In this document: piece after piece, positions 32,468-44,829 of the stretch
How the letters are laid out: every line of letters starts with the position of its first letter
Numbering within the stretch: position 1 is the first letter of the stretch
DNA from: Plantactinospora endophytica
GTDB lineage: Bacteria; Actinomycetota; Actinomycetes; Mycobacteriales; Micromonosporaceae
Reading direction: 5' to 3'
DNA length: 64,000 nucleotides
Assembly: GCF_016862915.1 (NCBI RefSeq)
Contig: NZ_BONW01000039.1
Location: 62,001-126,000 of the forward strand
Made by a program: the position numbers and the translations under genes
The notes under the pieces: model-generated
Database searches by the model: none
Told to the model about the DNA's origin: nothing
What the model saw: only the letters and a program-made list of their open reading frames with translations

Positions 32468-33241
32468 ATGACAGAGGGCAGATTCGAGGGCCGGGTCGCG
32501 GTCGTCACCGGCGGGGCGGCCGGCTTCGGCCGGGCGGTGGGGGAGCGGCTGTTGGCCGACGGCGCCCGGGTGGTGCTGGTGGACCGGGACGCCGAGGCGC
32601 TCACCGCCACCGCGGCCGAACTGGCCGAGCGTGGACCGGTCCGGGCGGTCCGGGCGGACGTGAGCCAGGAGGCCGAGGTCGCCGGATACGTCGCCGAGGC
32701 GGTGCGGGAGTTCGGCCGGATCGACGCGTTCTTCAACAACGCCGGTATCGAGGGCCGGATGGCGCCGATCACCGAGCTGAGCGTCGAGGACTTCGACCGA
32801 GTGATAGCGGTGAACCTGCGCGGCGGCTTCCTCGGGCTGCGCGAGGTGCTCCGGGTGATGAAGGAGCAGGGCGGCGGGTCGATCGTGAACACCGCCTCGA
32901 TGGCCGGAATCCGGGGCAGTGCGATCTTCAGCCCGTACGTGGCGTCGAAGCACGGTGTGATCGGGCTGACCCGGTGCGCCGCGCTGGAGGGCGCGCCGTA
33001 CGGGATCCGGGTCAACACCATCGCACCGGGGCACATCGACACCCGGATGGCCCGGGACCTCACCGTGCAGGTGGACCCGGACGACCCGCAGGGCGCGTAC
33101 GAGCGGGCGGTGGCCCGGATCCCGCTGGCCCGGTACGGCACCGCCGAGGAGGTGGCGAACCTGGCGACCTGGCTGCTCTCCGACGAGGCGAGCTACGTCT
33201 CCGGCGCCACCCACCTGATCGACGGCGCGCTGAACGCCTGA
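32468..33241 (+). CDS. SDR-family oxidoreductase 3
   Basis: The 257-residue classical SDR has TGGAAGFG, NNAGIEG, the catalytic Ser in NTASMAGI, YVASK, and the PGHIDT and YVSGATHLIDGALNA ends. It is closest in layout to 3-oxoacyl-ACP-reductase-like and sugar-alcohol dehydrogenases. It follows SDR 2 by 5 bp and precedes the IlvD/Edd dehydratase by 50 bp, so the oxidised product may feed the dehydratase. The two adjacent SDRs share only family motifs and are not a recent duplicate. Confidence 0.92.
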   Translation: MTEGRFEGRVAVVTGGAAGFGRAVGERLLADGARVVLVDRDAEALTATAAELAERGPVRAVRADVSQEAEVAGYVAEAVREFGRIDAFFNNAGIEGRMAPITELSVEDFDRVIAVNLRGGFLGLREVLRVMKEQGGGSIVNTASMAGIRGSAIFSPYVASKHGVIGLTRCAALEGAPYGIRVNTIAPGHIDTRMARDLTVQVDPDDPQGAYERAVARIPLARYGTAEEVANLATWLLSDEASYVSGATHLIDGALNA

Positions 33242-33291
33242 CCGGCCGGCGGACCGAACGCAGCCCTGACCATCCAGCCGAAAGAGAACCC

Positions 33292-35064
33292 GTGACCCTG
33301 CGCAGCAACCTCGCGGTCGGCAGTTCCCGCTGGGCCGTCCGGCGGGCCCAGTGGCGGGCCCTCGGCCTCTCCGACGAGGAGATGACGAGGCCGAAGATCG
33401 CCATCGTGAACTCCTCGTCGAACCTGGCGATCTGCTTCAGCCATCTGGACGACATCGTGCCGCCGCTGAAGGAGGCGATCCGGGCGGCCGGCGGAGTGCC
33501 GTTCGAGGTGCGTACCGCCGCGCCGAGCGACTTCATCACCAGCGCCGGGCGGGACGGCCGGTACATCCTGCCCAGCCGGGACCTGATCGTGAACGACATC
33601 GAGGTCGCGGTCGAGGGCGCCCTGCTGGACGGGATGGTCTGCCTCGCCTCCTGCGACAAGACCGCGCCCGGTCAGTTGATGGCGGCGGCCCGGCTGGACG
33701 TCCCGACCATCGTGGTCGGCTGCGGCTACCAGCCCAGCGGCCGGTTCCGGGGCGAGCACGTCGACATCGAGGAGGTCTTCCTGGCGGCCGGGCACGTGGC
33801 GGCCGGGCACCTCTCGCTGCCGGAGCTGACCGAGATGAGCGACAACGCGATCCGGGGCCCGGGGGTCTGCGCCGGGATGGGCACCGCGAACTCGATGCAC
33901 ATCGCCAGCGAGGCGCTCGGGATGACGCTGCCGGGCAGCACGCCGGTGCTGGCGAACAGCCCGCGGATGTGGGCGGACGTGCGGCGGGCCGGCGAGCGCA
34001 TCGTCGCGATGGTGGACGAGAGGCTGAAGCCGAGCGACATCCTCACCGTCGAGGCGTTCGAGAACGCGGTGACCGTGCTGCTCGCGGTGAGCGGCTCGGT
34101 GAACGCGATCAAACACCTCCAGGCGGTCGCGGTCGAGGCGCGCCGGGCCGTCGACATCCCGGCGCTGTTCGAGCGGTACGCCGACAGCGTGCCGCTGCTG
34201 GCCGCGATCCGGCCGAACGGACCGCACTTCATCGAGGAGTTCGAGGGGGCCGGTGGTGCCCTGGCGGTGTTGAAGCAGCTCGCCGGTCAACTGCACCTGT
34301 CGGCCCGTACGGTGACCGGGCAGACCCTGGGCGAGGTGCTGGCCGACGTCACGGTCGCCGACGAGGAGATCATCCGACCGGTCGACCGCCCGCTCGGCCG
34401 CCGCCCCGGCATCGTGGTGGTACGCGGTTCGCTCGCCCCGGACGGCGCGGCGGTGAAGCGGCCGGTCGACGACCGGGGACCGACCCGGTTCGAGGGCCGG
34501 GCGATCGTCTACCCGAGCCGGGACGCCGCGCTGGCCGGACTGGCCGCCGGGGAGATCCGTCCCGGTCACGTGGTGGTGGTGGCCGGACTCGGTCCGAAGG
34601 GTGGCCCGGGGATGGGGATGGCCTCGGCGGTGGTCTTCGCACTGGACGGCGCGGGTCTGGGCGACCAGGTGGCGGTGGTCACCGACGGCCAGATGTCCGG
34701 GCTGGTCAACACCGGGATCGTGGTCGCCGAGGTGTCCCCGGAGGCGGCCGTCGGCGGACCGCTGGGGCTGGTCGAGCCGGGCGACCCGATCGTGGTCGAC
34801 ATCGTCGCCCGGACGGTCGACCTGCTGGTCCCCGCCGACGTGCTCGCGGAGCGCCGGAAACGGTTCCGGGCCCGGCCGCACTCCGCCGAGCAGGGCTGGC
34901 TTTCCGTCTACGAACGACTGGTCACGCCGGTGGCCGAGGGCGCCGTGCTGACCGAGCGCAGCGTGTCGACCGAGGGCGCCGTGCTGACCGAGCGCAGCGT
35001 GTCGACCGAGGGCGCCGTACTGACCACGGCCGCCGTGGAGACGCAGGAGAGGAACGAGCGATGA
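33292..35064 (+). CDS. IlvD/Edd-family dehydratase (dihydroxyacid or sugar-acid dehydratase)
   Basis: The 590-residue enzyme has the three Fe-S cysteines of the family: C48 (LAICFSH), C121 (ASCDKTAPG) and one in GVCAGMGTANSM. GPKGGPGMGM and VTDGQMSG are signature segments. A lone catabolic copy beside dehydrogenases points to a sugar-acid or dihydroxyacid dehydratase rather than branched-chain amino-acid synthesis. It starts with GTG 33292 after AAAGAG. The last ~30 residues are a 12-residue repeat (EGAVLTERSVST) encoded by a 36-bp tandem array. It overlaps the FAD gene by 4 bp. Confidence 0.9.
   Translation: MTLRSNLAVGSSRWAVRRAQWRALGLSDEEMTRPKIAIVNSSSNLAICFSHLDDIVPPLKEAIRAAGGVPFEVRTAAPSDFITSAGRDGRYILPSRDLIVNDIEVAVEGALLDGMVCLASCDKTAPGQLMAAARLDVPTIVVGCGYQPSGRFRGEHVDIEEVFLAAGHVAAGHLSLPELTEMSDNAIRGPGVCAGMGTANSMHIASEALGMTLPGSTPVLANSPRMWADVRRAGERIVAMVDERLKPSDILTVEAFENAVTVLLAVSGSVNAIKHLQAVAVEARRAVDIPALFERYADSVPLLAAIRPNGPHFIEEFEGAGGALAVLKQLAGQLHLSARTVTGQTLGEVLADVTVADEEIIRPVDRPLGRRPGIVVVRGSLAPDGAAVKRPVDDRGPTRFEGRAIVYPSRDAALAGLAAGEIRPGHVVVVAGLGPKGGPGMGMASAVVFALDGAGLGDQVAVVTDGQMSGLVNTGIVVAEVSPEAAVGGPLGLVEPGDPIVVDIVARTVDLLVPADVLAERRKRFRARPHSAEQGWLSVYERLVTPVAEGAVLTERSVSTEGAVLTERSVSTEGAVLTTAAVETQERNER
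34936..35025. repeat. 36-bp tandem repeat at the 3' end of the IlvD/Edd gene
   Basis: Two identical 36-bp units (34936-34971 and 34972-35007) and half of a third (35008-35025, one base different). Each encodes EGAVLTERSVST. The near-identity indicates a very recent expansion. Confidence 0.92.
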
Positions 35065-36419
35065 CGTCCGGCAGCGGTGAACTGGTCGAGCCGGGGCGGC
35101 GTACCCCGGTGCTCGGCGAGTACGACGTGGTGGTGCTCGGCGGCGGGCCGGCCGGGGTGATGGCGGCGACCGCCGCCGCCCGGGCCGGCCGGTCCACGAT
35201 CCTGATCGAGCGGTACGGCTATCTCGGCGGGGCGGGCAGCGCCGGTGGGTTGAGTACCTTCTGCGGGCTGCACGCCAACGTGCACGGCGAGCACCGTCAG
35301 GTGATCCACGGGCTCGCCGACGACCTGCTGGACCGGATGGAGCGGCTGGACGGGCTGAACCCGGCACACCTCTCCTTCGAGAACCGGATCCTGGCCCAGG
35401 CGTACGACATCTCGGCGTACAAGATCGCCACCGACGACCTGGTGGTGGAGTCGGGCGCGAAGGTGCTCTTCCACGCCCTCGCCGTCGGGGTGGTGATGGG
35501 CGCCGACGACACCGTGCACGCCGTACTGGTCGAGTCGAAGTCGGGCCGGGGCGCGATCGTCGGGCGGTTCTTCGTCGACTGCTCCGGCGACGCCGACCTG
35601 GCCGCCTGGGCCGGCGCTCCGTACGAGAAGACGCCCGGCGACGCCGGGATGATGTACCCGTCGCTGATGTTCCGGATCAACGGGGTGGACGCCGAGACGG
35701 CGATCCGGGAGCGGGAGCGGCTGCCCGGCCTGATGGACGAGGCGGAACGGGCGGGCACCTTCCGGTTCGCCCGGAAGAAGCCGATCGTGCGTCCGCAACG
35801 CAACCCGCTGGAGTGGCGGGCCAACATGACCCAGCTCAGCAACCCGGACGGCAGCGCGATCGACGGTACCGACGTGCAGCAGCTCAGCCTCGGCGAGTTG
35901 CAGGGCCGGCGGCAGATCCGGGACCAGTTCCCGTTCTTCCGGGCGCACGTCCCCGGCTTCGCCGACTCGTACGTCGTGGACATCGCCCCGTCGATCGGCA
36001 TCCGGGAGACCCGGCGGATCGTCGGCCCGTACCAGCTCACCAGCGACGACATCCTGGACTGTGTCGACTTCCCGGACACGATCGGGGTGAACGGCTGGCC
36101 GGTGGAGGCGCATGTGGCCGGGGACGTGGTGATCCGCTGGCCGAACGGCGACAACCCGCGCGGCTTCAACCAGCTTCCGTTCCGGATGATCGTCCCGCAG
36201 CGGCTGGCCAACCTCTACGTCGCCGGCCGGTGCGCGTCGATGACCCACGACGGGCAGTCGTCGGCCCGGGTCACCGGCCCGTGTTTCGCGATGGGTCAGG
36301 CTGCGGGTACGGCGGCGGACCTCGCCCTCGGCGCCGGAGTGGCCGGCGGCGAGGTCGACGTGGCGCAGTTGCAGAAGCGGCTGACCGACGACGGGGCGTA
36401 CCTGGGGACGACGTGGTGA
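35061..36419 (+). CDS. FAD-dependent oxidoreductase (FAD_oxidored family)
   Basis: The 452-residue flavoprotein has VVVLGGGPAGVMAATAAARAG for FAD binding, followed by ERYGYLGGAGSAGGLSTFCG, a family signature, and VAGRCASMTHDGQSSARVTG near the C-terminus. These are typical of the PF12831-type dehydrogenases found in sugar-alcohol and thiolation pathways. It overlaps the IlvD/Edd gene by 4 bp and is followed after 34 bp by the aconitase X large subunit. It probably passes electrons to an unidentified acceptor. Confidence 0.88.
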   Translation: MTSGSGELVEPGRRTPVLGEYDVVVLGGGPAGVMAATAAARAGRSTILIERYGYLGGAGSAGGLSTFCGLHANVHGEHRQVIHGLADDLLDRMERLDGLNPAHLSFENRILAQAYDISAYKIATDDLVVESGAKVLFHALAVGVVMGADDTVHAVLVESKSGRGAIVGRFFVDCSGDADLAAWAGAPYEKTPGDAGMMYPSLMFRINGVDAETAIRERERLPGLMDEAERAGTFRFARKKPIVRPQRNPLEWRANMTQLSNPDGSAIDGTDVQQLSLGELQGRRQIRDQFPFFRAHVPGFADSYVVDIAPSIGIRETRRIVGPYQLTSDDILDCVDFPDTIGVNGWPVEAHVAGDVVIRWPNGDNPRGFNQLPFRMIVPQRLANLYVAGRCASMTHDGQSSARVTGPCFAMGQAAGTAADLALGAGVAGGEVDVAQLQKRLTDDGAYLGTTW

Positions 36420-36453: not shown

Positions 36454-37731
36454 ATGCGGTTGACCGACGACGAGCGGCGGATGCGCGACGGCGAGCAGGG
36501 CGAGGCCGTCGCGGCCGCGATGGACCTGCTGATCCGGTACGGCGAGGTGCTCGGCGCCGAGCGTCTGGTGGACACCGACAACGTCTGTGGGGCGAACATC
36601 TTCGGTCCCCGGCAGATGCAGCTCTGCGGGCACGCCGGCCCGGACGCGGTCTTCTCGGAGTTCAGCCTGGACAGCCCGGAGCCGGTGGAGATTCCTCCGA
36701 TGCGGGCGCAGAGCTACCAGCTCATTGGGCCGATGGACACCCAACACTGGCAGGTGCAGGGCCTCAGCCAGGAGGCGCACGACGCGATCGAGGAGTCCGA
36801 GTCGTACAGCGCCCGGCACGGCATCCACCTGATGAACACCTGCACGCCGTACCAGGTCGGGAACGTGCCGGTGAAGGGGGAGCACTGCGCCTGGATGGAG
36901 TCCTCGGCGGTGGTCTACGTCAACTCGGTGCTGGGCGCCCGGACCAATGTGGAGGGTCGGGAGAGCGCGGCGGCGGCGATGTTGACCGGCAAGATCCCGT
37001 ACTGGGGCTACCACCTGGCCGAGAACCGGTTCGGCAGCCACCTGGTCGAGGTGGCCGAGCCGGTACGGGACAGCCTGGACTGGGGCCTGCTCGGCTACTA
37101 CGTGGGTGAGCAGGTCCAGGAGGGCGTACCGGTGCTGGACGGCATCGCCGAGGTGCCGAACCTGGTCAAGCTCAAGCACTTCGGTGCCGCCGCCGCCTCG
37201 TCCGGCGGGGTGGAGATGTACCACATTCCCGGCACGACGGTGGAGGCCAGGAGCGTCGAGGAGGCGTTCGGCCCGCGCCGGCCGCTGCAGACCCTCCGGT
37301 ACGGCGAGCGGGAGCGACGGCTGACGTACGAGCAGTTGAACTCGACGGCGCAGGACACCGACGTCGACCTGGTGATGATCGGCTGCCCGCACGCGACGCT
37401 GAGCCAGATCCGGGACGTCTGCCGGCTGGTCGAGGGCCGGAAGGTGCATCCGGACAGCGCGCTCTGGGTCTTCACCCCGCGAGCCATCCGACAGGTCGCC
37501 GAGCAGAACGGCTACGCCCGGATCCTCCGGGACGCCGGTGCGCTGCTGATGAGCGACACCTGCCCGGCGATCGGGCAGTTCCTGCCGAAGGGGACCCGGG
37601 TGATCGCCACCGACTCGGCGAAGCAGGTGCACTACCTGCCGGCGATCATGAAGGTGCAGGGCTGGTTCGGCAGCACCGAGGAGTGCGTGCAGTCGGCCCT
37701 GACCGGCCGCTGGCAGGGGGAACTGCGATGA
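36454..37731 (+). CDS. Aconitase X catalytic (large) subunit
   Basis: The 425-residue protein is the AcnX large domain (formerly DUF521). The three conserved cysteines expected to hold the Fe-S cluster are C130 (NTCTPYQ), C311 (GCPHATLSQI) and C370 (DTCPAIGQF). Characterised members dehydrate cis-3-hydroxy-L-proline in bacteria or mevalonate 5-phosphate in archaea. The small swivel subunit is a separate gene just downstream, so the enzyme is heterodimeric. The present context does not contain proline-racemase-like genes, so hydroxyproline is not a firm substrate call. Confidence 0.93.
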   Translation: MRLTDDERRMRDGEQGEAVAAAMDLLIRYGEVLGAERLVDTDNVCGANIFGPRQMQLCGHAGPDAVFSEFSLDSPEPVEIPPMRAQSYQLIGPMDTQHWQVQGLSQEAHDAIEESESYSARHGIHLMNTCTPYQVGNVPVKGEHCAWMESSAVVYVNSVLGARTNVEGRESAAAAMLTGKIPYWGYHLAENRFGSHLVEVAEPVRDSLDWGLLGYYVGEQVQEGVPVLDGIAEVPNLVKLKHFGAAAASSGGVEMYHIPGTTVEARSVEEAFGPRRPLQTLRYGERERRLTYEQLNSTAQDTDVDLVMIGCPHATLSQIRDVCRLVEGRKVHPDSALWVFTPRAIRQVAEQNGYARILRDAGALLMSDTCPAIGQFLPKGTRVIATDSAKQVHYLPAIMKVQGWFGSTEECVQSALTGRWQGELR

Positions 37732-37781
37732 CGGAGCAGGGGGAGCTGCGATGAGGGAGCAGGAGGAGCTGCGATGACGGC
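37713..37781 (+). repeat. Triplicated 23-bp SD/stop-start junction with two 8-codon mini-ORFs
   Basis: Three 23-bp units (GCAGGGGGAGCTGCGATGAGG and variants) start at 37713, 37736 and 37759. Each has a purine-rich ribosome-binding sequence and ATGA. The AcnX stop overlaps the ATG of a mini-ORF (37728-37754, MTEQGELR), whose stop overlaps a second (37751-37777, MREQEELR), whose stop overlaps the swivel-subunit ATG at 37774. Confidence 0.88.
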
Positions 37782-38232
37782 GGCCGGCACCACCATCACG
37801 CTGCGCGGGCGGGGCCTGGTCGGCGGGGTGACCGAGGGCGAGGCGCTGGTGACCCGGGACAGCATCTCCGGCTGGGGCGGCATCGAGCCGACCGGTGGCC
37901 GGATCATCGAGTCCCGGCACGAGTTGGCCGGCCAGTCGTTCCGGGACCGCGTCCTGGTCTTCCCGGCTGCGAAGGGCTCCTCCGGCTGGTCCGGCATGTT
38001 CCACATGTCCCGGCTGGCCGGTTCGGCACCGAAGGCGATGATCTTCAACTACATGAACACGAAGATCGCGCTAGGCGTGGTGGTGACCCGGGTACCGGCA
38101 GTCACCGACCTGGACCAGGACCCGCTCGACGTGATCGAGACCGGCGACTGGGTACGCGTCGACGCCGACAACGGCCTCGTCGTGGTGACCAGGGGAGGAG
38201 CCGTGGTGACCAGGACAGGAGGGCAGTCATGA
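37774..38232 (+). CDS. Aconitase X swivel (small) subunit
   Basis: The 152-residue protein is the swivelling domain of AcnX (formerly DUF126), with RGLVGGVTEGEALV, GGIEPTGGRI and the GSSGWSGMFH loop (normally KGSxxS) that closes the active site. GGAGGAG lies 7 nt before ATG 37774. It works with the large subunit. Its C-terminus contains a 21-bp duplication (VVTRGGAVVTR). It overlaps the selenoprotein start by 4 bp (ATGA), so the UGSC protein is translated directly after it. Confidence 0.92.
   Translation: MTAAGTTITLRGRGLVGGVTEGEALVTRDSISGWGGIEPTGGRIIESRHELAGQSFRDRVLVFPAAKGSSGWSGMFHMSRLAGSAPKAMIFNYMNTKIALGVVVTRVPAVTDLDQDPLDVIETGDWVRVDADNGLVVVTRGGAVVTRTGGQS
38181..38214. repeat. 21-bp direct duplication at the AcnX swivel 3' end
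   Basis: CGTGGTGACCAGG occurs at 38181-38193 and 38202-38214, encoding two VVTR segments. Each copy is followed by a GGAGGA- or AGGAGG-type sequence, so the ribosome-binding site of the next gene was duplicated as well. Confidence 0.8.
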
Positions 38233-38771
38233 CCGACTGGGCGGGGGTGATCCTCGACCCGACCGGCGACGCCGAGAAGGGCGCGGACACCACCCTGGCG
38301 CCCCGGCTGGGCAGCCTGCGGGGCGCGAAACTGGGCCTGCTGGACAACGGCAAGCCGAACGGGTCGGTGCTGCTCGCCGAGATCGGCGACCACCTGCGCG
38401 AGCGGTACGGCGTGCGCGAGGTGGTGATGTACACCAAGTCGTACTTCGGCACGCCGGTGGACCAGACGCTGACCGAGCGGATCGTGCAGGAGTGCGACTT
38501 CGCCGTCGCGGCCATCGGCGATTGAGGCTCGTGCAGCGCGGCCAGTTTGGCCGACGGGATTCTGCTGGAACGTAACGGCATTCCAGCGGTCTCAATCTGC
38601 ACCGAGCCGTTCCGGATTCCGGCCGATGCCATGGCGAAGGCCTACGGCTTCCCCGGTTTCCAGTACCTGCTGACTCCGCACCCGGTCGCCAGCCTGACCC
38701 TGGCGGAGGTCCGGCAGCGGGTGGTCGAGATGACGCCGCGCATCCTGGCGATCCTGGGGGTGGAGGAGTGA
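38229..38771 (+). CDS. UGSC-family selenoprotein, in-frame TGA read as selenocysteine
   Basis: The frame from ATG 38229 runs to TGA 38523 and continues in the same frame to a stop at 38769-38771, giving 180 residues with selenocysteine at position 99. Around the TGA the sequence reads VAAIGD-U-GSCSAASLADG, which matches the UGSC/CGSC motif of the thiol-redox-like UGSC family known in Sec and Cys forms. The part after the TGA (ILLERNGIPAVSICTEPF, then a TPHP segment) is the conserved C-terminal half, so a true stop would remove half the protein. A hairpin 19 nt after the TGA fits a bacterial SECIS. The start overlaps AcnX (ATGA) and AGGAGG lies upstream. The reaction is unknown. A frameshift is excluded because no frame change is needed. 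Confidence 0.9.
38526..38565 (+). promoter_or_regulatory. Candidate bacterial SECIS element
   Basis: After the TGA at 38523-38525, CGGCCA (38539-38544) pairs with TGGCCG (38548-38553) around the loop GTT. The loop starts 19 nt after the UGA, within the 16-37 nt allowed for bacterial SECIS, and has G in its first position and GU as in the E. coli fdhF loop. GCAG (38533-38536) can add a lower stem with CTGC (38562-38565). Confidence 0.8.
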
Positions 38772-39910: not shown

Positions 39911-40007
39911 CGGTGGCCCGGGGCGGCCGGTGACGGCTGTCCCGGGAACGGGTCCGGCCCGCCGGACGTGGTGCTGTCGTACCCGCGACGGGCAGTTGCG
40001 ATCTTCG

Positions 40008-40038
40008 TTGTCCGGGGCGTACCGTCGAGACGTAATTC
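40008..40038 (+). promoter_or_regulatory. Promoter of the FAD monooxygenase gene
   Basis: TTGTCC (40008-40013) and TAATTC (40033-40038) are 19 bp apart. The predicted start point lies close to ATG 40047, so the mRNA would be almost leaderless; no ribosome-binding site is visible. The -10 box overlaps the palindromic operator candidate. Confidence 0.45.
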
Positions 40039-40052
40039 ATCGAGCGATGAAT
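40035..40052. promoter_or_regulatory. 18-bp perfect inverted repeat over the start codon, candidate operator
   Basis: ATTCATCG-AG-CGATGAAT covers the end of the -10 box, the transcription start and ATG 40047. A bound repressor would block initiation completely. The IclR gene at 43987 and the TetR gene at 44901 are the nearest candidate regulators. Confidence 0.6.
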
Positions 40053-41315
40053 AAGGTGATCGCGGTGGGCGAGCGTACGAGTTGCGTCGTAATCGGCGGC
40101 GGACCGGCCGGAATGGTGCTGGGACTGCTGCTGGCCCGAGCCGGCGTCGACGTGACGGTGCTGGAGAAACACGGCGACTTCCTCCGCGACTTCCGGGGCG
40201 ACACCGTGCACCCGTCGACCCTGCGACTCCTCGACGAACTCGGCCTCGGCGAGCGGTTCGCCCGGCTGCCGCAGAGCCGGGTGGACGAGATCGCCTTCCC
40301 GACCTCCGACGGCCGGCAGATCGTCATCGCCGACTTCCGCCGGTTGAGGACCCCGCATCCGTACATCGCGATGGTGCCGCAGTGGGACCTGCTCAACCTG
40401 CTCGCCGAGGCGGGTGCCGCCGAGCCGACCTTCACGCTGCGGATGCGCGCCGAGGTGACCGAGCTGCTCCGGGAGGACGGCCGGGTCCGGGGCGTGCGCT
40501 ACCGGGGACCGGACGGCGAGACCGCCGAGCTGCGCGCCGAACTGGTGGTGGCCTGCGACGGCCGCTGGTCGATCGCCCGGGCACAGGCCGACCTGCCGGT
40601 CCGGGAGTTCCCGGTACCGATCGACGCCTGGTGGTTCCGGCTGCCCCGCGACCCGCAGGACGACCCGGCCGGGCTCACACCCCGGGTCGGGCAGAACCGG
40701 TTCGCGGTGGTGATCCCCCGGGAGGGCTACCTCCAGATCGCCTACATCGCCCGCAAGGGCAGCGACGCCGAACTACGGGCCCGGGGCATCGAACACTTCC
40801 GCCGAGACGTCGCGGACCTCGCACCCGGCTTCGCCGACCGGGTCGACACGATCGCCTCGATGGACGACGTCAAGCACCTCGACGTACGCCTGAACCGGCT
40901 GGACCGCTGGCACGTGCCCGGCCTGCTCTGCCTGGGCGACGCGGCGCACGCGATGTCCCCGATCGGCGGGGTCGGGATCAACCTCGCCGTGCAGGACGCC
41001 GTCGCCGCCGCGACCCTGCTCGCCGAGCCGCTGCGGCGCGGCACGGTGACCGAGGCCGAGTTGGCCGCCGTCCGGTCCCGGCGACTGCTGCCGACCATCC
41101 TGGTGCAGCGGTTGCAGCAGTTCCTGCACCAGAACTTGGTCGTGCCGATCCTGGCCGGGCGGCGGGCCGGCCCGCCCCGGCCGGTGCTGGCCCTGCTGCG
41201 GCGCGTCCCGGTCGTCTCCCACGGCCCGGCCTACCTGATCGGCGTCGGCTTCCGCCCCGAGCACGCGCCGCCGTTCGCCCGCCAGCCAGCGGCACCGGTC
41301 AACTCGGACGGGTAG
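40047..41315 (+). CDS. FAD-dependent aromatic-type monooxygenase (PHBH fold)
   Basis: The 422-residue flavoprotein monooxygenase shows the FAD fingerprint VVIGGGPAGMVLGLLLARAG, the DG motif in VACDGRWS and the GD motif in LCLGDAAHAMSPIGGVGINLAVQDA. Relatives hydroxylate or demethylate phenolic and polyketide substrates with NAD(P)H and oxygen. ATG 40047 is chosen because the fold begins 8 residues later and a promoter/operator overlaps it. It is separated from the UGSC pair by 136 bp and probably starts a new unit with the Rieske system. Confidence 0.9.
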   Translation: MNKVIAVGERTSCVVIGGGPAGMVLGLLLARAGVDVTVLEKHGDFLRDFRGDTVHPSTLRLLDELGLGERFARLPQSRVDEIAFPTSDGRQIVIADFRRLRTPHPYIAMVPQWDLLNLLAEAGAAEPTFTLRMRAEVTELLREDGRVRGVRYRGPDGETAELRAELVVACDGRWSIARAQADLPVREFPVPIDAWWFRLPRDPQDDPAGLTPRVGQNRFAVVIPREGYLQIAYIARKGSDAELRARGIEHFRRDVADLAPGFADRVDTIASMDDVKHLDVRLNRLDRWHVPGLLCLGDAAHAMSPIGGVGINLAVQDAVAAATLLAEPLRRGTVTEAELAAVRSRRLLPTILVQRLQQFLHQNLVVPILAGRRAGPPRPVLALLRRVPVVSHGPAYLIGVGFRPEHAPPFARQPAAPVNSDG

Positions 41316-41387: not shown

Positions 41388-41458
41388 TCTACTTCCCGGT
41401 CGACCGGCCGCTCGACATGCTCCGAGGAGAAGATCAGCCGCTTCTCCAAGGAGTCGCC

Positions 41459-42511
41459 ATGACGGCTTTCGTACGCGACCAGTGGTATGTCGCCGCATAC
41501 AGCAGGGAGGTCGGGCGGGAACTGCTCGGCCGGACGATCCTCGGCGAGCCGATCGTCTTCTACCGCACCGGGGACGGCGAGGCGGTCGGGCTGGCCGACC
41601 GGTGCGTGCACCGTCGCTTCCCGCTCTCGGAGAGCCGGCTCGACGGCGACACGATCGTCTGCGGCTACCACGGCTTCACCTACGACAGCGGCGGCTCCTG
41701 TGTCTTCGTCCCCGGCCAGCAGCGGATCCCGCGTACGGCGCGGGTCGCGGCGTACCCGGTGGTCGAGCAGGACTCGTTCGTCTGGGTGTGGATCGGCGAC
41801 CGGGCCAAGGCGGATCCGGCGCTGATTCCCCGGGCGCCCTGGCTGGCCGACCCGAACTACACCACGGTTTCCGGTATGGAGCCGTTGAACGCCCGCTACA
41901 TGCTGCTGGTCGACAACCTGATGGACCTCTCCCACGAGACCTACCTGCACGGCGGTTACATCGGCACCCCGGAGGTGGCCGAGACGCCGATCCAGACCGA
42001 GGTCGACGAGGACTCCGGGATCGTCTACGTCAGCCGGCACATGGACGACGCCGCCTGCCCGCCGTTCTACGCCAAGTCGACCGGGATCGAGGGCCGGATC
42101 ACCCGCTGGCAGGACATCGAGTACCACCCGCCGTGCCTCTACCTGCTGCACAGCCGGATCGCGCCGCAGGGCGTCTACCCGCCGGCCGAGGGCCCGGACG
42201 ACCAGGCGTTCCACGTCGAGGTGGTGTACGCGATCACCCCGTCCACCGAGAACACCACGTACGACTTCTGGGCCGTGGCACGGGACTTCGCGCTCGACGA
42301 CGAGGAGGTCAGCCGGTTCCTGCACAGCAACAACCACACGGTGGTGATGCAGGACGTGACCGCGCTCAACCTGCTCGAACAGGTACTCGTCAAGGAGGCC
42401 GACGGCTACCAGGAGCTGAGCATCAACATCGACACCGGTGGCCTGGCGGCCCGTCGCATCCTCAAGCGGATGGCCGAGCGGAGTCGGCCGGAGGGCGCGG
42501 TGACGTCGTGA
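41459..42511 (+). CDS. Rieske-type aromatic oxygenase alpha subunit (VanA-like O-demethylase)
   Basis: The 350-residue protein binds a Rieske [2Fe-2S] cluster through C49-x-H51 and C68-x2-H71 (CVHRRF and CGYHG). Mononuclear iron is held by the H159/H164 region (DNLMDLSHETYLH), with D156 as the bridging acid. Size and motifs match single-component vanillate O-demethylase-type and related oxygenases. Electrons should come from the PDR/VanB-type reductase at 42889. GGAG precedes the ATG. Its C-terminal end overlaps a small gene by 4 bp. Confidence 0.92.
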   Translation: MTAFVRDQWYVAAYSREVGRELLGRTILGEPIVFYRTGDGEAVGLADRCVHRRFPLSESRLDGDTIVCGYHGFTYDSGGSCVFVPGQQRIPRTARVAAYPVVEQDSFVWVWIGDRAKADPALIPRAPWLADPNYTTVSGMEPLNARYMLLVDNLMDLSHETYLHGGYIGTPEVAETPIQTEVDEDSGIVYVSRHMDDAACPPFYAKSTGIEGRITRWQDIEYHPPCLYLLHSRIAPQGVYPPAEGPDDQAFHVEVVYAITPSTENTTYDFWAVARDFALDDEEVSRFLHSNNHTVVMQDVTALNLLEQVLVKEADGYQELSINIDTGGLAARRILKRMAERSRPEGAVTS

Positions 42512-42888: not shown

Positions 42889-43902
42889 ATGTCCAGCAAC
42901 CCCGATGACGAGTACCGGACCAGATCCTCCGGCGGTGCGAGCGCGCCGGCCGGCGGCGAGGGCGAACAGGACCTGCTGCTGACCGCGAAGACCGTGGCGG
43001 CGGACGGCGTCGTCGTACTCACCCTGCGGCATCCGGCCGGAGCGGCGCTGCCGTCCTGGGAACCCGGCGCCCACGTCGACCTGCTGCTCCGACCCGACCT
43101 CGTCCGGCAGTACTCGCTCTGCGGCGACCCGGCGGACCGCACCGAGCTGCGGGTCGCGGTGCTGCGCGAAACCGCCGGTCGGGGTGGCTCGGCGTACGTG
43201 CACGACGAGTTGCCGGTCGGTGCGACGGTACGCGTCCGGGGTCCCCGCAACTCCTTCGCGTTGCTGCCCGCGAAGCGGTACCTCTTCATCGCCGGCGGCA
43301 TCGGGATCACCCCGATCGTGCCGATGCTGGCGGCGGCGGAGGCGGCCGGTGCCGACTGGCGGCTCGTCTACGGCGGCCGGTCCCGGGCCTCGATGGCGTT
43401 CCGCACCGAACTGCGGCAGCGGTACGGCGACCGGGTCTCGATCCAGCCGCAGGACGAGACCGGGCTGCTCGACCTGCCGACCCTGCTCGCCGACCCCGAC
43501 CCGGACCGACTCGTCTACTGCTGCGGCCCGGAACCGCTGCTCGGCGCGGTACAGGACAACTGCCGGCAGTGGCCCGCCGGCACGCTCCGGGTCGAGCGGT
43601 TCGCGCCGAAGACCTTCGACGAACCGGTCCGCCGGGAGTCGTTCGAGGTGGAACTCGCCCGGTCCGGCCGGACCCTGACGGTGCCACCGGACCGGTCCAT
43701 CCTCCAGGTCGTGGAGGAGGCCGGGATCCCGGTGCTCTCCTCGTGCCAGGAGGGGACCTGCGGCACCTGCGAGACCGCCGTACTCGGCGGCACCCCGGAG
43801 CACCGCGACTCGCTGCTGACCGACGAGGAGCAGGCGGCCAACGACACGATGATGATCTGCGTCTCCCGGTCCCGTACCCCGAAACTGCTGCTCGACCTCT
43901 GA
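42889..43902 (+). CDS. PDR/VanB-family oxidoreductase (Rieske reductase)
   Basis: The 337-residue electron-transfer protein has an FMN/FAD-binding RQYSLCG, an NAD-binding domain with FIAGGIGITPIVPM and YCCGPEPLL, and a C-terminal plant-type [2Fe-2S] ferredoxin domain (CQEGTCGTC plus a distal Cys in MICVSRS). This order of flavin, NAD and ferredoxin domains is that of phthalate dioxygenase reductase/VanB. It is the obvious electron donor of the Rieske oxygenase two genes upstream. The N-terminal ~25 residues are low-complexity. Confidence 0.92.
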   Translation: MSSNPDDEYRTRSSGGASAPAGGEGEQDLLLTAKTVAADGVVVLTLRHPAGAALPSWEPGAHVDLLLRPDLVRQYSLCGDPADRTELRVAVLRETAGRGGSAYVHDELPVGATVRVRGPRNSFALLPAKRYLFIAGGIGITPIVPMLAAAEAAGADWRLVYGGRSRASMAFRTELRQRYGDRVSIQPQDETGLLDLPTLLADPDPDRLVYCCGPEPLLGAVQDNCRQWPAGTLRVERFAPKTFDEPVRRESFEVELARSGRTLTVPPDRSILQVVEEAGIPVLSSCQEGTCGTCETAVLGGTPEHRDSLLTDEEQAANDTMMICVSRSRTPKLLLDL

Positions 43903-43986: not shown

Positions 43987-44829
43987 ATGCTGGTGGTGGC
44001 GGGGCTGAGCGGGCTGGGGGTGGCGGTGCCGGACGGGACGCCGTCGGGGACGGGATCGGTGACGGTACGCGCCCTGCGTCTGCTGGAGGCGTTCACCCCG
44101 GACCGCCGCGAGCTGACCCTGACCGAGCTGGCCGCCCGGGCCGGGCTGCCGCTCACCACCACCCATCGACTGGTCAACGACCTCGCCGGCTGGGGCGCGG
44201 TGGAGCGGGACGCGGACGGGCGCTACCACATCGGGCTGCGGCTGTGGGAGATCGCCTCGCTCGCACCGCGCGGGCTCGGGCTCCGCGAGGCGGCGCTGCC
44301 GTTCCTGGAGGACCTGTTCCAGGTGACGCAGGAGAACGTCCAACTCGCCGTCCGGGAGGGCTTCGAGGTGGTGTACGTCGAGCGGATCGCCGGGCACAGC
44401 GCGGTGCCGGTGCTGACCCGGGTCGGCGGACGGTTCGCGATGCCGCCGACCGGTGTCGGGCTGGTGCTGCTGGCGCACGCCCCGACCGACGTACAGGAAG
44501 CCGTGCTCGACGCGCCGTTGCAACGGTTCACCGAACGGACCATCACGTCCGCCCGTGAACTGCGCCGGGTGCTCGCCGAGGTGCGGCGTACCGGGATCGC
44601 GATCAGCGACCGGCAGGTGACCATGGACGCGCTGTCGATCGGTGCCCCGGTGTACGGCCCGACCGGCGACGTGGTGGCCGCCGTGTCGATCGTCGTCCGG
44701 GCACCCCGTCCGCAGCGCGCCGGACTGATCCCGGTGGTCCGGGCCGCCGCCCGGGGCATCTCCCGGGCACTGCGTGCTCCCGCGCTCCCGGCCGCCCGGC
44801 CGCCCCGCCGGGACCCCGGCCCGGAGTAA
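43987..44829 (+). CDS. IclR-family transcriptional regulator 2
   Basis: This IclR protein has the N-terminal winged helix (ELTLTELAARAGLPLTTTHRLVNDL) and the effector domain with VYVERIAG, MPPTGVGLVLLAH and SIGAPVYGPTGD. The start is uncertain: ATG 43987 lacks a ribosome site and overlaps a TATGCT -10-like box (43986-43991), so GTG 44020 or GTG 44026 may be the true start, about 30-40 nt downstream. It follows the Rieske reductase by 84 bp and is the likely regulator of the oxygenase genes, with the palindromes at 40035 and 41369 as candidate sites. Confidence 0.88.
   Translation: MLVVAGLSGLGVAVPDGTPSGTGSVTVRALRLLEAFTPDRRELTLTELAARAGLPLTTTHRLVNDLAGWGAVERDADGRYHIGLRLWEIASLAPRGLGLREAALPFLEDLFQVTQENVQLAVREGFEVVYVERIAGHSAVPVLTRVGGRFAMPPTGVGLVLLAHAPTDVQEAVLDAPLQRFTERTITSARELRRVLAEVRRTGIAISDRQVTMDALSIGAPVYGPTGDVVAAVSIVVRAPRPQRAGLIPVVRAAARGISRALRAPALPAARPPRRDPGPE

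Follow-up and report, generated by a model that had tools for sequence, protein, structure and literature searches.

In the accessible text of a survey of ocean metagenomes, UGSC figures among the major selenoprotein families, with 255 genes of the selenocysteine (Sec) form and 21 cysteine (Cys) homologues, and a fusion of UGSC with a protein termed Unknown_1 is also described there (PMC2398784). According to the available part of another article, UGSC selenoproteins of Geodermatophilaceae that use UAG as their Sec codon have already been reported (PMC5330540). The portions of the UGSC selenoprotein literature that we sampled, in which subscription papers are mostly not represented, state no function for UGSC and draw no tie to GrdB or PrdB. 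The original report of the UAG-coded proteins is said to be that of Mukai et al. in 2016.

Here we analyze a UGSC gene of Plantactinospora endophytica that lies within a stretch of 64,000 nucleotides, referred to as the window; the positions of its features count from the first letter of this stretch. The predicted product contains the U-G-S-C motif with Sec at its first position, has this Sec at the place where the family (NF041046 / PF24696) carries either Sec or Cys, and passes the cut-offs of both family models. We found no difference that would exclude it from the family, although its Sec clade is placed among Cys forms by branches that are partly weak. With the Geodermatophilaceae proteins it shares both the family and the alignment column of the Sec residue, but these combine UAG with a tRNA-Sec(CUA), whereas the window gene combines UGA with a tRNA-Sec(UCA). 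Like the ocean UGSC/Unknown_1 fusion, as far as it is described in the accessible survey text, the window ties UGSC to a second conserved protein, in this case encoded by a separate gene.

A UGSC-family gene with an in-frame TGA

The reading frame starts with an ATG at 38229, runs through 98 codons to the TGA at 38523-38525, continues with the residues GSCS and 81 codons in all, and ends with a TGA at 38769-38771 (Table 1). The frame overlaps both neighbors, its start sharing bases with the stop of the swivel gene (38232) and its stop with the GTG start of the partner gene (38768). A preliminary description of this DNA had claimed an open frame of 98 codons before and 81 codons after the TGA, with GSCS directly behind it and GIPAVSICTEPF and TPHP segments further downstream; all of these are present as it had stated. 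Since the DNA of the window is GC-rich, open flanks of this kind are common in it (at least 81 open codons follow 300 of its 1046 TGA codons, and flanks as open as those in UGSC lie on both sides of 95 out of 1043 TGAs); openness by itself is therefore weak evidence, and homology decides.

Scored alone, the 98-residue half of the product reached 87.9 bits with PF24696 and 48.1 bits with NF041046, and the 81-residue half 98.4 and 84.8 bits, respectively. The joined product scored 207.3 bits against PF24696 (cut-off 25) and 154.1 bits against NF041046 (curated cut-off 125). In an alignment of 21 UGSC relatives, TGA, TAG and Cys codons occupy a single column, and Cys102 is presumed to be the redox partner of the Sec. 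The preliminary description had considered that homologues might end at this position, an outcome excluded by relatives that continue past it with Cys, TGA or TAG; the sequencing error it had likewise considered is countered by two genomes of the same genus, each with two copies that retain the TGA.

We also compared dN/dS after and before the TGA. The values were 0.13 and 0.12, and 0.30 and 0.17, in comparisons with the two closest copies (L169, L170), and 0.28 and 0.32, and 0.32 and 0.26, with L156 and L157; the comparison with the distant L168 gave a weak signal (0.65 and 0.82). These ratios indicate that protein-level selection persists downstream of the TGA. The in-frame TGA is confirmed as real and, judged from its sequence, the gene is an intact new member of the known UGSC selenoprotein family. 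That this TGA is decoded as Sec, taken alone, we regard as very nearly certain.

Table 1. Features of the UGSC locus in the window
Feature	Position	Strand	Basis or remark
Short-chain dehydrogenase (SDR)	32468..33241	+	By eye and likeness to SDRs of other loci
IlvD-like dehydratase	33283..35064	+	Under curated cut-offs; uncertain start
FAD-dependent oxidoreductase	35061..36419	+	Homologue at locus L055 matches PF12831; candidate start
Aconitase X catalytic subunit	36454..37731	+	PF04412, 390 bits
Aconitase X swivel subunit	37774..38232	+	PF01989
UGSC-family selenoprotein gene	38229..38771	+	180 residues, Sec99; 180-codon frame, profile matches and alignment
TGA read as selenocysteine (product residue 99)	38523..38525	+	Alignment, same-genus TGA copies, tRNA-Sec match
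Cys102 codon (C of UGSC)	38532..38534	+	No variation across 21 aligned sequences
SECIS-like hairpin, 12 pairs, GUN loop	38533..38565	+	Possible in each of the six TGA family copies
Partner gene, 380 aa	38768..39910	+	No match in Pfam or NCBIfam; next to UGSC in 103 of 110 loci
FAD monooxygenase	39930..41315	+	PF01494
Rieske oxygenase, vanillate demethylase-like	41417..42511	+	PF00355, PF19112
Ferredoxin reductase-like electron carrier	42889..43902	+	PF00111, PF00175
IclR regulator	43987..44829	+	

Selenocysteine decoding machinery and its match to the codon

The genome assembly to which the window belongs (G000; 9.68 Mb, 90 contigs, 99.6% complete) encodes SelB, SelA and SelD next to each other on contig C12 and a tRNA-Sec with the anticodon UCA on contig C5, and hence holds all of the sel genes to which the preliminary description had pointed. 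A second selenoprotein gene of this genome codes for a formate dehydrogenase with one in-frame TGA in the stretch ARIUHSA (L208, G000:C12:196001-202000) and lies about 8 kb from selD.

UGSC is present in 45 of the 298 genomes of the order. As counted from the table of its 65 matches, 16 contain one TGA, 31 one TAG, 18 no stop codon and none a TAA. All 31 matches of the TAG type fall into family f16, which would be the Geodermatophilaceae, just as the window's family f1 would be the Micromonosporaceae, to judge from adjoining named rows of the tree. For the tRNA-Sec search we chose 31 genomes: 10 with a TGA gene, seven with a TAG gene, 10 with only Cys-form UGSC, and four of the window's genus without UGSC. 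The TGA and TAG genomes represent seven of 12 and seven of 22, respectively, from the order search, together with three TGA genomes from the family search. A tRNA-Sec gene was found in eight of the 10 genomes with a TGA gene (the two misses being 80% and 57% complete) and in all seven with a TAG gene. It was likewise found in the four same-genus genomes without UGSC; because seven of the 10 tested Cys-only genomes have one as well, its presence alone is not specific. The anticodon agrees with the stop codon: it is UCA in each of the eight TGA genomes with a tRNA-Sec and CUA in each of the seven TAG genomes.

Some individual tRNA genes deserve mention. ARAGORN names the CUA tRNA-Sec of the seven f16 genomes (L192-L198) tRNA-Pyl. 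Both anticodons, UCA and CUA, occur in G085, which has a tRNA-Sec gene for each (L175, L198). In G031, 155 bp separate the tRNA-Sec gene from a UGSC selenoprotein gene of the same orientation (G031:C9:37688-38437).

While the main claim of the preliminary description, a UGSC-family selenoprotein made by UGA read-through, is supported by the profile scores, the Sec machinery and the alignment, its view of Sec decoding as uncommon in this actinomycete group is not supported: all seven genomes of the genus that are shown here have a tRNA-Sec, and only three of them have UGSC.

Hairpin and codon usage downstream of the TGA

Four genomes supply the family's six TGA copies: the window's own with one, G816 and G817 with two each, and G666 with one. 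From the TGA onward, 45 of 57 bases are invariant among these copies. The folding energy of the putative hairpin is not better than that of shuffled sequences (z -0.19), and no covariation was seen in it, with only one of the twelve pairs varying, which is too few to judge.

At positions where the Sec copies have the same residue, codon identity is 0.91 from +6 to +10 compared to 0.59-0.77 in other stretches; over +1 to +14 it amounts to 0.79 in the Sec copies versus 0.64 in ten Cys orthologues. An AGT found in the six Sec copies corresponds to a Thr codon in these ten Cys orthologues. Codons ending in A or T account for one of 97 before codon 98 of the window gene, for 12 of 51 among codons 98-149 (TGA excluded), and for none of the 31 thereafter. 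This run of A/T-ending codons (38520-38675) begins at the TGA and, at about 50 codons, exceeds the length of a SECIS. Across genes, mean GC3 in the 15 codons past the site falls from 0.88 to 0.80 in TGA genes (n = 7) and from 0.96 to 0.89 in TAG genes (n = 13), whereas Cys genes show no fall (0.913 to 0.920; n = 90).

Sec and Cys forms in the UGSC tree

The tree comprises 127 sequences, 13 with TAG, 12 with TGA and 102 with Cys. The scan for Cys forms relied on a pattern requiring Cys codons, and 80 of 219 relatives were kept; the share of Cys forms in the tree is inflated because this pattern could find no other form. The six TGA copies make up one clade (99/91) within an otherwise Cys-form group, apart from the clade that holds the TGA and TAG forms of other families. 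The fork that places the window's clade among the Cys forms has a support of 88/94, below the 95 mark. With uneven sampling and weak forks, one reading of this topology is that Cys changed to Sec separately in the window's lineage.

Partner gene and operon

In 103 of 110 UGSC loci, the partner gene lies within 400 bp of UGSC on the same strand; it follows UGSC in 76 and precedes it in 27. In three of the remaining seven loci it is found farther off, and four have none, two of these having short flanks; the Microbacterium UGSC genes L072 and L073 show no partner match despite 9-kb flanks. The 110 loci, many of them closely related, combine 30 from the order search with 80 from the Cys-only scan and leave out the decayed copy L024. 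The structure model of the partner (pLDDT 86.6) has no close match; the best hit is a class I fumarate hydratase (E 1.1e-3, TM 0.27), followed by cyclic amide hydrolases of the Toblerone fold. A GrdB-like nature of the partner was rejected (hhalign 0.4%).

The operon from the SDR gene to the IclR gene is conserved in G816 and G817 with protein identities of 84-98%, and G817 contains a second set of UGSC, partner, FAD and IlvD genes (L209). The window's genome holds a decayed second UGSC copy on contig C8 (L024; L201:11432-13605), with an internal stop and a CGA at the Sec position; it is followed by what by eye appears to be the tail of a partner gene and then by an FAD oxidoreductase gene split across two frames. 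The decayed UGSC and the frame-broken FAD gene look like the remnant of a second set of the G817 type.

We rejected a cis-3-hydroxy-L-proline dehydratase identity for the aconitase X catalytic subunit, which scored 235 bits where the cut-off is 700. Genes for Zn-ADH, SDR, ABC transport, aldehyde dehydrogenase, amidohydrolase, acyl-CoA ligase and IclR proteins recur near UGSC in a survey whose gene picking was crude, as UGSC itself was recovered from 42 of the 81 stretches, and which scanned one representative for 17 of the 45 clusters listed. No single pathway fits these recurrent neighbors.

Predicted fold and likeness to GrdB and PrdB

The AlphaFold2 model of UGSC, made with 21 sequences (pLDDT 89.7), consists of five strand-helix units, and residue 99 immediately precedes the helix 100-115. 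Foldseek returned only distant PDB matches, flavodoxins and GTPases included, with a best TM of 0.49 among the matches listed. Sequence comparison with solved structures gave nothing convincing for UGSC, its partner or the Sec domain of GrdB/PrdB.

A search of the phylum with PF07355 gave matches in 52 of 246 genomes. We fetched 20 loci and read 17 of them past the match, 11 being GrdB-like and six shorter and PrdB-like by our own naming; a TGA stands at the corresponding place in all 17 genes. In each of the 11 GrdB-like genes (L134-L144), this Pfam GRDB model stops right before the Sec codon, and it looks as if it had been built from UGA-cut products.

Profile comparison by hhalign gave a probability of 93.3% (E 2.6e-7) for UGSC against the joint GrdB/PrdB set, 74.7% against the PrdB-like set alone and 63.8% against the GrdB-like set alone. 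With 111 UGSC rows, into which the window protein entered twice (P0001, L023), the corresponding values were 91.5, 83.9 and 47.3%. The real score of 47.4 compares with a maximum of 22.8 in 200 column shuffles; when the four motif columns were masked, it was 42.1 (84.7%) or 41.3 (83.5%) versus a maximum of 21.3 in 100 shuffles. Six unrelated profiles reached at most 1.9%, and those of nucleotide-binding folds (SDR and FAD) at most 1.6%. The likeness spans 60-95 columns and is confined to the Sec half. Both GrdB/PrdB and UGSC place Sec after a strand, followed by a helix ending in E-x-x-GIPT and then by a P-H/Y/F-P loop. On these sequence comparisons, the Sec half of UGSC is likely homologous to that of GrdB/PrdB.

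PrdB works paired with a second subunit, PrdA, much as UGSC would with its partner. UGSC differs from GrdB and PrdB in that it is devoid of the N-terminal GrdB domain and of a PF07355 match (none in 21 UGSC members), in that its partner does not resemble GrdB, and in its setting, a catabolic operon that includes a Rieske oxygenase.

Discussion

For UGSC we have computed the gene, its family, the decoding machinery, the match of codon and anticodon, the gene pairing and the predicted fold; we infer the complex, the chemistry and the substrate class of an enzyme formed with the partner. Our proposal, decoding and chemistry taken jointly, is a tentative one with rather less than an even chance of being right: a Sec99 enzyme related to GrdB/PrdB that consists of two subunits, UGSC and its partner, and catalyzes a catabolic step. 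SelB and the tRNA-Sec(UCA) would decode the UGA as Sec, probably with the hairpin as a guide. The product would be an alpha/beta (Rossmann-like) domain of five strands in which Sec99 sits between strand 3 and the helix that follows, a domain that is probably related to the Sec half of the glycine reductase GrdB and the D-proline reductase PrdB. UGSC could then serve as the selenol subunit and the adjoining 380-residue protein as the other subunit of the enzyme. On a small organic-acid substrate, the selenolate might attack beside a carbonyl, or a covalent adduct might form; Sec would then join Cys102 as a selenenylsulfide, which cellular thiols would reduce. The operon content, with two dehydratases, FAD enzymes, a Rieske oxygenase and an IclR regulator, suggests that this would be one step of a catabolic pathway.

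The chances come close to even that UGSC has a chemistry of its own, for example electron transfer to the adjoining FAD and Rieske enzymes, and that its likeness to GrdB/PrdB reflects convergence at the Sec loop of a Rossmann-like fold. The restriction of the likeness to the Sec half, the many redox enzymes of the operon and a weak match of one member to the Rossmann-type PF02882 (E 1.7e-4) are in keeping with convergence, but the likeness persists with the motif masked and is not shared by the SDR and FAD profiles. It is improbable that UGSC, while a selenoprotein of the kind described, is a thioredoxin-like thiol-disulfide oxidoreductase, as suggested in the accessible text of the 2008 ocean survey. 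Its UxxC motif does resemble that of thioredoxin, and one of 21 members matched PF13192 (E 0.19), but we rejected a thioredoxin fold in view of the predicted topology of five strand-helix units, the best 50 of 1679 Foldseek matches, among which no thioredoxin is named, and an hhalign value of 0.5% against 25 thioredoxins. That the TGA is a genuine stop, left by a recent nonsense mutation or a sequencing error in a Cys-type gene that is now a pseudogene, is most improbable: most near homologues found have Cys (in a scan that could find Cys forms only) and one decayed UGSC copy does exist in the genome, but the TGA is kept in six family copies, one of them in a genome that is a single contig, selection appears to persist behind it, the Sec machinery is complete, and other families pair TAG with a CUA tRNA.

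Returning to the two-subunit enzyme related to GrdB/PrdB, a still wider claim is doubtful: UGSC and its partner might constitute a new, two-subunit class of Sec/Cys reductases that branched off from the GrdB/PrdB family and serves actinobacterial catabolism rather than amino-acid fermentation, with Sec replacing Cys independently and a new SECIS arising in the window's lineage. The GrdB/PrdB likeness, as a likely kinship, and the near-constant partner gene are useful additions to the UGSC literature as represented by the portions sampled. A standard gene call on the window gene would lose the half of the enzyme that contains its active site. Together, the tie to the GrdB/PrdB Sec domain and the near-constant partner provide a concrete biochemical hypothesis and single out the two proteins that it concerns.
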